Shown here: one piece after another, positions 4,925 through 18,368 of the stretch
Numbering within the stretch: position 1 is the first letter of the stretch
Layout: each line of letters opens with the position of its first letter
NCBI RefSeq assembly: GCF_029338555.1
Contig: NZ_CP119989.1
Location: forward strand, 868,001 to 932,000
DNA: 64,000 nt
From: Halobaculum marinum
GTDB taxonomy: Archaea; Halobacteriota; Halobacteria; Halobacteriales; Haloferacaceae
Direction: 5' to 3'
Program-made: the position numbers and the translations under genes
The notes under the pieces: generated by a model
Told to the model about the DNA's origin: nothing
The model's input: the letters and a program-made list of their open reading frames with translations, nothing else
Databases searched by the model: none

Positions 4925-5227
4925 TCACGGATCGCCGCCGGCTCCACGCTGTGTCGCGTACAGCGAGTAGCCGATTACGGCGAACCCGGTGGTTGTCAGG
5001 GCGTTCTCGACGACGAGAGCCGTCGACGTGTCCAACAGCAACGACTGATCGGCAACGCCCGCGAGTAGCGAGCCGAACGTCGCGATCCCGAAGCCGATCG
5101 CGAGGTACGTCAGGCCCGCCCACCCCGTCTTCCGGGCGGCGCGGGCGGCGGTGTAGGTGACGAACCCACCGATGACGAGCGTGAGCGTCTTGAACACGAT
5201 GACGAGTGGTGGGACGGTCGCGCTCAC
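4925..5227 (-). CDS. Small membrane protein coupled to the upstream wHTH regulator
   Basis: 100 residues with a GTG start whose bases overlap the stop of the upstream regulator (GTGA, 5224-5227), so the two are translationally coupled. Three hydrophobic segments (about 7-27, 37-60, 70-92) with short loops containing ARAARKTG. This is a recurrent haloarchaeal pairing: a winged-helix regulator followed by a small three-helix membrane protein (I believe the family catalogued as DUF7521, not verified). The arrangement suggests the membrane protein senses or modulates the regulator, but that is inference. Confidence 0.75.
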   Translation of the reverse strand: MSATVPPLVIVFKTLTLVIGGFVTYTAARAARKTGWAGLTYLAIGFGIATFGSLLAGVADQSLLLDTSTALVVENALTTTGFAVIGYSLYATQRGAGGDP

Positions 5228-5592
5228 ACTTCCTCACTGATGCGCGACCAGAGGCGCGCGAGGTGTTCGTCCGCACCCGGGGACTCCTGTCGCAACTCGA
5301 ACTCGAACCCGCCCTCCGTCTCCCCGTCGAGCAGCACCAACACGCCCGTTGCCGTCCGCTCGTACGTCTTCTCGTGGTGCCCGTCGGTGCGGATACTCGT
5401 CCCGGTGCTGGCGAGGCCGGCGTCGGAGAGCGCCTCCAACTTCCGGTAGGCACTCGTTCGCGGTAGATCGCAGCGGTCGGCGACTTCGGCGGCACTGCGG
5501 GGCGTTTCCAGTATCGTCAGGATCTCCCGACACTCGGGATCGGCGAGGGTCTCGAGTACCGACTGGAGATCCGTGGAGGGCGTATCGGTCAT
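5224..5592 (-). CDS. Winged-helix (ArsR/MarR-like) transcriptional regulator
   Basis: I choose ATG 5592 (MTDTPSTDLQ...), giving 122 residues; the open frame reaches 5691 but the extension is Pro/Gly-rich with no domain. The helix-turn-helix spans about residues 10-60: LADPECREILTILETPRSAAEVADRC, then the recognition helix LPRTSAYRKLEAL, followed by the wing GLASTGTSIR...KTYERT. The C-terminal part (about 85-122) is acidic. It cotranscribes with the membrane protein overlapping its stop. DNA-binding is supported by sequence; targets unknown. Confidence 0.85.
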   Translation of the reverse strand: MTDTPSTDLQSVLETLADPECREILTILETPRSAAEVADRCDLPRTSAYRKLEALSDAGLASTGTSIRTDGHHEKTYERTATGVLVLLDGETEGGFEFELRQESPGADEHLARLWSRISEEV

Positions 5593-5796
5593 GACTGTCG
5601 GAGGGGTGTGGCCCGGCGTCGCCCCGAGACGGTGTCCGGGCGAGAGCGTCGGGGCCGCGTACATCGTTCGCTGTCTGGCGAGGGCATCCACTACGATGAG
5701 TTAAATCCGGCGACACGATAGACGCCCCCACTGCGTTTCAGGATCTGGAACGCATCACGGGGTATCGTCACGACGGCGCACCGACGTCGAGCCGTG

Positions 5797-6693
5797 ATGT
5801 CACGGTCCCCCAGCCGCAGACGACTGCTGAGACGTGCCGCCCTCGTAGGAGCCGTCGGACTCGCCGGTTGTGTCTCCGCCGCTGACCCGGGCGACGAGCC
5901 GGACGGAACCGACGACGGCGGGCCGGCGACGACCGCCGCGACCGCGAGCACCGACCCGACCGAGGCGCCCGCCGACGAGCCCCTCAAAGAGTGGCTCGCG
6001 GGGGCGAACGGGTACGACGGCGAGATCGTCCGTCAGGCACCGCGTTCGACCCCGACGGTCGCCGTGGGCGAACACACCGACGACGGCCTCGCGTTCGTCC
6101 AGCCGGCGATCGAGGTCGCGCCGGGGACGGCCGTCCGGTGGAACTGGACGGGCCATGGCGGTCAACACAACGTCGTCGCGCTCGACGGCACGTTCGACAG
6201 CGGACGCACCAACGCCCAGCACGGCACGCAGTACCACTACATCTTCACGGAGCCGGGCGTCCACCGCTACGTCTCCGAGCCGGACCGCGAGGACGGGATG
6301 CGCGGCGTCGTCGTGGTCGCGGAGCCGCCGTCGTCCGGCAACGAGAAACTCGACGAGTGGGTCGTCGCCTCCGGCAACTTCGACGGCACGATCGTCGACC
6401 GGACCGGCACGGAGGTCGCCACCGTCTCCGTCGGCGTCGCGGGCAACGGCGGTAGCTTCGCCTTCGGCCCCCCGGCACTCCGCATCGACGCTGGGACGAC
6501 CGTCGAGTGGAGGTGGGTCGAAGAGAGCGGGCCGCACAACGTCGTCTTCGAAGCGATCGACGCGGGATCCGCAACCGTGTTCACCGACCCCGGAGTCCAC
6601 GTTGCGCACACCTTCGAGACGCCCGGTACGTACCTGTACTCGTGCGAGCCCCACGAGTCACTCGGGATGCGTGGTGCGGTCGTCGTCGAGTAG
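5797..6693 (+). CDS. Two-domain halocyanin-like cupredoxin lipoprotein; first copper site degenerate
   Basis: 298 residues from ATG 5797 (a GTG lies directly before it). SRRRLLRRAAL plus lipobox LAGC (Cys25) indicates Tat export and lipid anchoring outside the cell. A Thr/Pro/Asp-rich linker (about 26-62) leads to two tandem cupredoxin domains (about 63-175 and 182-298). Domain 2 has the full type-1 copper ligand set: His247 (GPHNVV), Cys283, His286 and Met291 (YSCEPHESLGM). In the aligned part of domain 1 (His124, then YVSEPDREDGM) the Cys is Ser160 and the second His is Asp163; only His124 and Met168 remain. So one redox copper centre is predicted. Halocyanins act as membrane-bound mobile electron carriers; the partner here is unknown. 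Confidence 0.9.
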   Translation: MSRSPSRRRLLRRAALVGAVGLAGCVSAADPGDEPDGTDDGGPATTAATASTDPTEAPADEPLKEWLAGANGYDGEIVRQAPRSTPTVAVGEHTDDGLAFVQPAIEVAPGTAVRWNWTGHGGQHNVVALDGTFDSGRTNAQHGTQYHYIFTEPGVHRYVSEPDREDGMRGVVVVAEPPSSGNEKLDEWVVASGNFDGTIVDRTGTEVATVSVGVAGNGGSFAFGPPALRIDAGTTVEWRWVEESGPHNVVFEAIDAGSATVFTDPGVHVAHTFETPGTYLYSCEPHESLGMRGAVVVE

Positions 6694-6738
6694 CCGACCG
6701 GCTCGGTCGGAGCTCTCGTTCCTCGTAGCTGCGCCAGC

Positions 6739-17162: not shown

Positions 17163-18368
17163 TCAGTCGTTCTCCACCGGCTGCCGCTCGCGCTCGGCGC
17201 CCGGGTTCACGGTCTCGTGCACCCCGAGCACGAGCGCCGGAACGACGACCATGAAGATGTGTTCCTCCAGGGGGATGCCGAGCAGTTCGACGCCGGTGCG
17301 CATCGGAATCGAGAACACGCCGACCTCCAGCGTGTACCAGTCCCAGACGTACGCGAGCGGGTAGACGGCGGCGACGGTCCGCGCGGCGCGCCACGTCGCC
17401 GCCCGGCCCGCATGGCGGAGGAGTGCGAGTGCGGCGGTTCCGAACACGACCTCCGTCGCGAGGTAGGTGTACGGGCCGAGGACGGTGACGTCCGGCAGCG
17501 AGACGCCCGCCAGCGGTCGGAAGAACACCGCCACGAGCAGGCCCGCGAGGAACAGGTACGCGCCCCGCACCAGCAGCATGGTCGCCGTCGTCGCGTCTCT
17601 CCGGACGGCGACGACCGCGACGAAGCCGAACGCGAGGCTCGCGACCGGCGAGGCCGGCGGCAGCACGCCCACCACCGCGAGCGGGACGACCGCGAACAGG
17701 CCGACGCCGAGACTCGCCACCGCCAGCGAGCGGGCACGGTCGGGACCGAGCGCGACGGCGACGGTCCGTTTGTCGATGGTGCGGTCGTACGCGTAGTCTT
17801 GCGTGTCGTCGATCACCTTCACCCCGGCGAGCGTGACGACGAACACCGCCGCGAGCGCGAGCGGGGCGACCGCGAGCGTCCCGGTCTGGGCGGCGTAGCC
17901 GCCGAGGAGACACAGCGCGATGCCGACGGGGTAGCCGAGCGTCGTCGTCACCGGGTTGGTGTCGAACTGCGGGGCGTGGAGGTAGCCGATGGCCCACATC
18001 GGCGCCGCGAGCGCGACCGAGAGCGGGGTCGCGAGGACGGCGAGTCCGACGAGGCACGCACCGAAGCCGACCGTCGCACCCGCGAGACCAATCCGACACC
18101 CCCGTACGGTCATCGGATGGTCGTCGTCCTCGCCGCGGACGTGGAAGTCGACGTAGCCGTCTTTCACGTGGGCGGTGTAGACGGCGAAGAACGCCGCGCC
18201 GGCGTACACGAGCGCGACAAGTGGGTCGAACGCCCGCGTCCCGGCGGTCGAGAGCGCCGCGCCGAACAGCGCCGTCGCGACCGGCGGGAGCATGAACACC
18301 GGGTGGACCTGCGAGGCGTACGCGCGTGCGACCGCGGCGGGCCCGCTCTCGTGACGGGCGATAGTCAT
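17163..18368 (-). CDS. UbiA-type prenyltransferase fused to a lycopene-cyclase domain
   Basis: 401 residues, ATG 18368, about 10-12 membrane segments. Residues 1-290 look like a UbiA prenyltransferase: the first Asp motif is HVKDGYVDFHVRGEDD (Asp70, Asp74) and the second is KVIDDTQDYAYDRTIDK (Asp187, Asp188, Asp191, Asp195), the Mg-diphosphate-binding positions of the family. The C-terminal ~80 residues match the small lycopene beta-cyclase domain (CrtYc/CrtYd/CrtYe/f type): YVWDWYTLEVGVFSI then GIPLEEHIFM with the hallmark PxEE. Known systems pair a UbiA lycopene elongase with such cyclase domains to make cyclic C50 carotenoids (decaprenoxanthin in Corynebacterium). A carotenoid role is therefore likely, but no other carotenoid gene is adjacent. 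Convergent with ilvD. Confidence 0.75.
   Translation of the reverse strand: MTIARHESGPAAVARAYASQVHPVFMLPPVATALFGAALSTAGTRAFDPLVALVYAGAAFFAVYTAHVKDGYVDFHVRGEDDDHPMTVRGCRIGLAGATVGFGACLVGLAVLATPLSVALAAPMWAIGYLHAPQFDTNPVTTTLGYPVGIALCLLGGYAAQTGTLAVAPLALAAVFVVTLAGVKVIDDTQDYAYDRTIDKRTVAVALGPDRARSLAVASLGVGLFAVVPLAVVGVLPPASPVASLAFGFVAVVAVRRDATTATMLLVRGAYLFLAGLLVAVFFRPLAGVSLPDVTVLGPYTYLATEVVFGTAALALLRHAGRAATWRAARTVAAVYPLAYVWDWYTLEVGVFSIPMRTGVELLGIPLEEHIFMVVVPALVLGVHETVNPGAERERQPVEND

Follow-up and report, generated by a model that had tools for sequence, protein, structure and literature searches.

A UbiA prenyltransferase fused to a single lycopene-cyclase-family domain in haloarchaea

What is the function of a membrane protein that joins a UbiA prenyltransferase to one half of a lycopene cyclase? 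The window analysed here, a stretch of 64,000 nucleotides from the Halobaculum marinum contig NZ_CP119989.1 (positions 868,001 to 932,000), encodes such a protein (Table 1). The initial annotation had described it as a UbiA prenyltransferase fused to a single lycopene-cyclase domain, and had regarded the UbiA half as elongase-like, as expected of a compact enzyme for cyclic C50 carotenoids. The fusion itself is borne out, and the elongase-like character of its UbiA half is not. The UbiA family (Pfam PF01040) matches residues 31-256 (E 1.2e-8, 35.0 bits, just over the cut-off of 34.2), and the NCBIfam model CarR_dom_SF (TIGR03462) matches residues 300-381 (44.4 bits, cut-off 39.4). The Pfam family Lycopene_cyc (PF18916) matches residues 301-386 below its cut-off of 27 (E 9e-5, 23.4 bits). 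An AlphaFold2 model of the protein, built on 52 homologues (mean pLDDT 91), has a UbiA fold at about residues 10-288, followed by three helices that form a further domain at about 294-387. The fused architecture is not a chance occurrence, because 63 fetched homologues of the same form align with the window protein. In the resulting alignment of 64 rows, both PxEE and WDWY are retained in 62; the two rows that lack them are apparently L068 and L069, in both of which the UbiA and cyclase parts are out of frame with each other.

Table 1. Features of the fused gene, in positions of the window
Feature	Coordinates	Strand	Basis
Fused UbiA prenyltransferase / single CrtYd-like cyclase-domain protein, 401 aa	17163..18368	(-)	ORF translation, Pfam, NCBIfam, AlphaFold2, homologues
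UbiA prenyltransferase domain, residues 10-288, helical membrane bundle	17505..18341	(-)	AlphaFold2 model, PDB matches
First Asp-rich motif, variant, K69-D70-G-Y-V-D74-F-x-x-R78-G-E80-D81-D-D-H84-P85 (vs NDxxDxxxD)	18114..18164	(-)	Conservation in homologues, alignment
Second Asp-rich motif, canonical, K184xxDDxQDxxYDRxIDKRT202	17763..17819	(-)	Conservation, alignment with other UbiA families
Single lycopene-cyclase-family (CarR/CrtYd-like) domain, residues 289-387, three helices	17208..17504	(-)	TIGR03462, comparison with CrtY C-half, separate genes, AlphaFold2
W342-D343-W344-Y345-T346 motif	17331..17345	(-)	Invariant in 42 copies; CrtY alignment
I365-P366-L-E368-E369-H370, the PxEE motif of the cyclase family	17259..17276	(-)	P, E, E and H invariant

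The UbiA half belongs to the UbiA prenyltransferase superfamily by both profile and fold. Nine entries of solved UbiA structures match the model at Z 20.7-24.2, the nearest folds being those of DGGGP synthase (DGGGPS; 6m31, Z 24.2) and UBIAD1 (8djk_B, Z 24.1), with ApUbiA of A. pernix at Z 22.0 (4od4); no solved relatives of the fused protein were found by sequence. Both Asp-rich motifs of the superfamily had been reported as present. This is accurate for the second, which is canonical (DDxQDxxYDRxIDKRT), whereas the first is a variant, KDGYVDFxxRGEDDDHP, rather than NDxxDxxxD. The variant is conserved in 64 fused and 17 split homologues, and in the alignment LyeJ, MenA and DGGGPS show ND-type motifs in its place.

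The models of the known lycopene elongases, PRK12875 for LyeJ and PRK13105 for LbtC, give the fused protein no match at E 10 in NCBIfam. As controls, the host's own LyeJ reaches 448 bits with the former, and an Arthrobacter LbtBC reaches 469 bits with the latter through its UbiA half. Profile-profile comparison gives the UbiA half a probability of 2.5% with LyeJ, 8% with LbtC, 81% with MenA and 89% with DGGGPS, and the control comparison of LyeJ with LbtC gives 99.8%. The maximum-likelihood tree places the haloarchaeal UbiA subfamily in a clade of its own (100/99), and LyeJ and LbtC together in another (100/99). The freely estimated tree thus keeps the subfamily outside the LyeJ and LbtC clade, but forced grouping with it is not rejected (AU p = 0.32), the deep order being weakly supported. 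The profiles show the UbiA half as a putative separate haloarchaeal subfamily, set apart from LyeJ/CrtEb. Its best likenesses are to MenA/UBIAD1 and DGGGPS, in fold (Z of about 24 for DGGGPS and UBIAD1) and in profile similarity, which is still weak; split-form relatives likewise match MenA models weakly. The subfamily differs from all of these in its own clade, its variant first motif and its cyclase partner.

The C-terminal half belongs by profile to the lycopene-cyclase family, nearest to the second (d) half of CrtY. It had been assigned to this family on a WDxY...GIPLEE signature, and both elements are present (W342-D-W-Y and G-I-P-L-E-E). Profile checks agree with the assignment: beyond the TIGR03462 match, the second half of haloarchaeal CrtY matches the cyclase half at 95.8% probability, and the first half does so at 67%. 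In the alignment, D343 stands opposite an Asp of the second half of CrtY, which also keeps the PxEE motif. The WDWYT motif and the P, E, E and H of the PxEE stretch are invariant in 42 fused and separate copies, and R357, H370 and H384-E385 are further invariant residues specific to this family. Modelled alone, the domain has a pLDDT of 91; a fold search of the PDB with it gave no clear match, which does not make the fold new.

Of the two different halves (c and d) that make up enzymes of the cyclase family, the fused protein contains only one d-like domain. A second half, for which a search of the genome had been proposed, was not found elsewhere in it, as the other PF18916 matches are only the two halves of CrtY. 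CrtY itself comprises two halves and no UbiA domain. As regards INDEPENDENCE from carotenoid genes, the congeners G146 and G296 carry the fused gene and have no CrtY match at E 1e-10. CrtY is therefore not the missing half of the fused protein, since both genomes keep the fusion without it. The presence of a single domain, where characterised cyclases use two, would suit a non-catalytic subunit that assists the prenyltransferase in assembly, substrate binding or membrane anchoring, as would the constant company of a UbiA protein and the extra family-specific invariants. We nonetheless consider such a role distinctly unlikely: the acids of PxEE and D343 are invariant in fused and separate copies, which would be unexpected for a pure scaffold.

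A fusion of a UbiA prenyltransferase with one cyclase domain is already known from the actinobacterial LbtBC. In Dietzia sp. CQ4, LbtBC works with LbtA in a pathway to C50 beta-cyclic carotenoids (PMC6393565), its cyclase being N-terminal (residues 1-134) and its elongase C-terminal (135-432; PMC6669644). Like the haloarchaeal protein, it combines a UbiA prenyltransferase and a single CarR/lycopene-cyclase domain in one chain, but in the haloarchaeal fusion the order is reversed. Further, the elongase of LbtBC falls in the LyeJ/CrtEb clade, whereas the haloarchaeal UbiA falls in a different one, and LbtBC is encoded in a crt operon where it overlaps lbtA, the gene for the second half, while the haloarchaeal fusion has no operon. 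Given the opposite order, the different UbiA clade and the missing operon, the haloarchaeal fusion looks independent of LbtBC. An unannotated pair of the LbtA/LbtBC type is also present on a 1-Mb plasmid of Arthrobacter sp. StoSoilB13 (L127:5153-6738), where a 129-aa cyclase subunit (5153-5542) overlaps a 399-aa cyclase-elongase fusion (5539-6738) by 4 bases; this is probably a cyclic C50 carotenoid locus.

Since the kinds of protein domain are the same as in the LbtBC of Dietzia (PMC6393565, PMC6669644) and of Arthrobacter, the haloarchaeal fusion could be a compact LbtABC, a synthase of cyclic C45/C50 carotenoids, with the UbiA half elongating lycopene by C5 units and the cyclase half forming the rings at its ends. 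A supply of lycopene can be expected in most haloarchaea, LyeJ having been found in 28 of the 30 genomes checked, and the AU test does not reject a grouping with LyeJ and LbtC. We consider this explanation unlikely, if still worth weighing, as the elongase models fail to recognise the UbiA half, its first Asp motif is a variant, the domain order is reversed, and LbtBC needs a second half, LbtA, for which no counterpart was found in the host genome. A canonical LyeJ is also present in that genome, and carotenoid genes are absent from the vicinity of the fusion.

The 3.5-Mb host genome encodes five UbiA proteins, namely a CtaB-like one (whose N-terminal extension reads as COX15-like by sequence), DGGGP synthase, MenA, the canonical LyeJ and the fused protein. 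LyeJ (C1:2312363-2313229) is found in a different region of the chromosome, next to crtB and to homologues of crtI/crtD and cruF. It shares with the fused protein its haloarchaeal setting and UbiA superfamily, but is a separate gene that matches a different NCBIfam model, has the canonical NDxxD and carries no cyclase domain. The two-half CrtY directly adjoins a brp/blh-like gene. Because of this LyeJ cluster and this CrtY-brp/blh pair, bacterioruberin and retinal synthesis appear to be served by other genes. LyeJ also occurs in genomes without the UbiA and cyclase pair (G001, G002, G014, G021, G075 and G218). Searches for crtB, crtI, lyeJ, cruF, crtY and brp (E 1e-8) found none in the window and none near 100 pair loci, the distance covered being about 8 kb around 80 homologous loci and about 6 kb around the separate cyclase gene at 20 others. 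These queries do recover the clusters in the host's own genome. This distance from carotenoid genes is weak evidence against a carotenoid role. A C50-carotenoid synthase is a less likely reading than a non-carotenoid prenyltransferase/cyclase.

The two parts co-occur near-obligately, whether fused or split. UbiA and cyclase lists from 391 haloarchaeal genomes were compared by hand: the full protein has a match in 315 of these, the cyclase domain in 311, and both in 309. Approximately 90 genomes carry one fused gene (89 full-length and one apparently frameshifted, by hand count). In approximately 219 others, a small cyclase gene stands apart from the gene for a UbiA protein of about 290 aa, mostly at a great distance, as in G106, where the parts lie at 0.33 and 1.68 Mb of one contig. 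The cyclase domain is a separate gene of about 100 aa in most haloarchaea. Among the genomes that lack a fused gene, roughly 301 in number, both parts occur in 219, UbiA only in 6, the cyclase only in 2 and neither in 74 (Fisher p 2e-60, a value that ignores relatedness and is inflated by it).

These exceptions largely disappear under an HMM re-check of 36 genomes, 34 picked for a missing or odd part and two serving as positive controls. Cyclase scores are bimodal, with true parts at 161-189 bits and everything else at 33 or below, in frames of CrtY-like length. UbiA orthologues score 331-454 bits, a second UbiA paralogue 162-177, and the remainder 26 or below. Five of the six UbiA-only genomes hold this second paralogue (162-177 bits), and both cyclase-only genomes have CrtY-like matches (26-33 bits). 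A UbiA orthologue without a cyclase part is left in G183 alone (94% complete), and the reverse case in none. Both genes are missing from G018, a member of genus g26 whose other listed members carry both in split form, and from G037 (g37). We infer that the parts are functionally coupled, because both have been lost together, including unlinked copies (G018 and G037).

The distribution across the UbiA tree points to repeated rearrangement. The fused or split state requires four changes, at least two of which are forced by well-supported branches, and the fused genes of Halovenus and Natronomonas group within Haloferacaceae, a placement that suggests their transfer. In some genomes, split pairs are adjacent or divergent (L064, L146 and L147). 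That the fusion joined two unrelated enzymes by chance, with nothing in common except ancient presence in haloarchaea, seems to us very improbable: most haloarchaea have both parts, so co-occurrence partly reflects shared ancestry, but joint loss of unlinked genes, adjacency of split pairs and repeated fusion or fission all speak against it. Separately, the Halobaculum litoreum chromosome record NZ_CP126156.1 has two very similar fused copies near its two ends (L010 and L068), the UbiA and cyclase parts of L068 being in different frames; the two copies may stem from a true duplication or from faulty assembly.

A phylum-wide search found no close relative outside haloarchaea, the best match (E 3e-6) being weak and confined to the UbiA part. 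The search beyond haloarchaea covered the same phylum and, for bacteria, a plasmid collection. The stronger finding of this work is that the pair is a haloarchaea-specific prenyltransferase/cyclase, near-universal there, in about four in five species. In the literature searched for a haloarchaeal UbiA/lycopene-cyclase fusion, for the pair or for haloarchaeal meroterpenoids, we found nothing relevant and no function assigned to the pair, and section 3.7 of a function survey that treats haloarchaeal genes for lipids, carotenoids and menaquinone does not mention it (PMC8305020).

Gene neighbourhoods name no pathway for the fused gene, the split UbiA genes or the split cyclase genes. The fused gene is surrounded by ilvD-like, PNPOx-like (pyridoxamine-oxidase-like, Pfam-confirmed) and katG-like genes, the first and last identified by reading translations, and these recur in only some close relatives. 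The split UbiA gene commonly has genes for a class I aminotransferase and a YchF-type GTPase around it, joined in Natrialbaceae by one for a TPP enzyme. At most of 20 loci (L130-L149), a divergently oriented gene next to the separate cyclase gene encodes a protein of about 380 aa with four CBS domains, and trp genes often lie nearby. Neighbour clustering is noisy, because high-GC shadow ORFs inflate the runs.

Haloarchaeal plasmids carry further UbiA genes. The second paralogue, 37-41% identical and without a cyclase domain, occurs at L092:5950-6804, L272:6971-7843, L273:6977-7879, L274:6971-7867, L275:7028-7960 and L276:7004-7798. It adjoins a divergent AMP-binding acyl-CoA ligase gene at all six loci and an IclR regulator at most, and in two genomes it lies near FAA-hydrolase and cupin genes, the one cupin tested being gentisate-dioxygenase-like. 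On pHME505 of Haloferax mediterranei (L091:3111-4664), a UbiA gene nearer to the fused family (57%), also without a cyclase domain, is followed by a gene for a DUF998 membrane protein. Plasmid pHl5678-1 of Haloferax larsenii has three UbiA prenyltransferase genes and a geranylgeranyl reductase-family gene (L128:4888-10529), possibly a specialised isoprenoid lipid locus.

We propose, with about even confidence, that the fused protein is a haloarchaea-specific, two-part membrane enzyme that prenylates an acceptor and then cyclises the attached chain. The UbiA part would use its two acidic motifs, with Mg2+, to bind a prenyl diphosphate, and would then join the chain to the acceptor. A small membrane molecule of aromatic or quinone-like type is a likelier acceptor than lycopene. 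The MenA matches of the split forms and the neighbours of the second UbiA paralogue are weak leads towards an acceptor that may be aromatic. Since there is only one half-domain, the cyclase domain would probably act as a homodimer, with two copies standing in for the usual c and d halves. D343 and the PxEE acids could then donate a proton to the distal end of the chain that the UbiA part has attached, so that a ring closes; the product would be a cyclised prenyl lipid not yet described. A comparable logic operates in bacterial and fungal meroterpenoid pathways with pairs of UbiA and Pyr4-type terpene cyclases, such as the zig cluster, in which an acceptor is prenylated and a membrane cyclase then closes the chain (PMC13307353). 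This likeness is one of logic only; by annotation, the Pyr4-type cyclase belongs to a different family from the haloarchaeal cyclase half.

We speculate, more tentatively and with some doubt, that some cyclised prenyl lipid or quinone not yet described, a membrane compound of a meroterpenoid-like kind, is formed by this enzyme in nearly all haloarchaea, a homodimer of single CrtYd-like domains cyclising a chain that UbiA has just attached to a non-carotenoid acceptor. If so, this would be, to our knowledge, the first known case of a single lycopene-cyclase half working with a non-carotenoid UbiA enzyme. That roughly four of every five haloarchaeal species retain the pair, fused or split, suggests that these archaea share an isoprenoid product not yet described.
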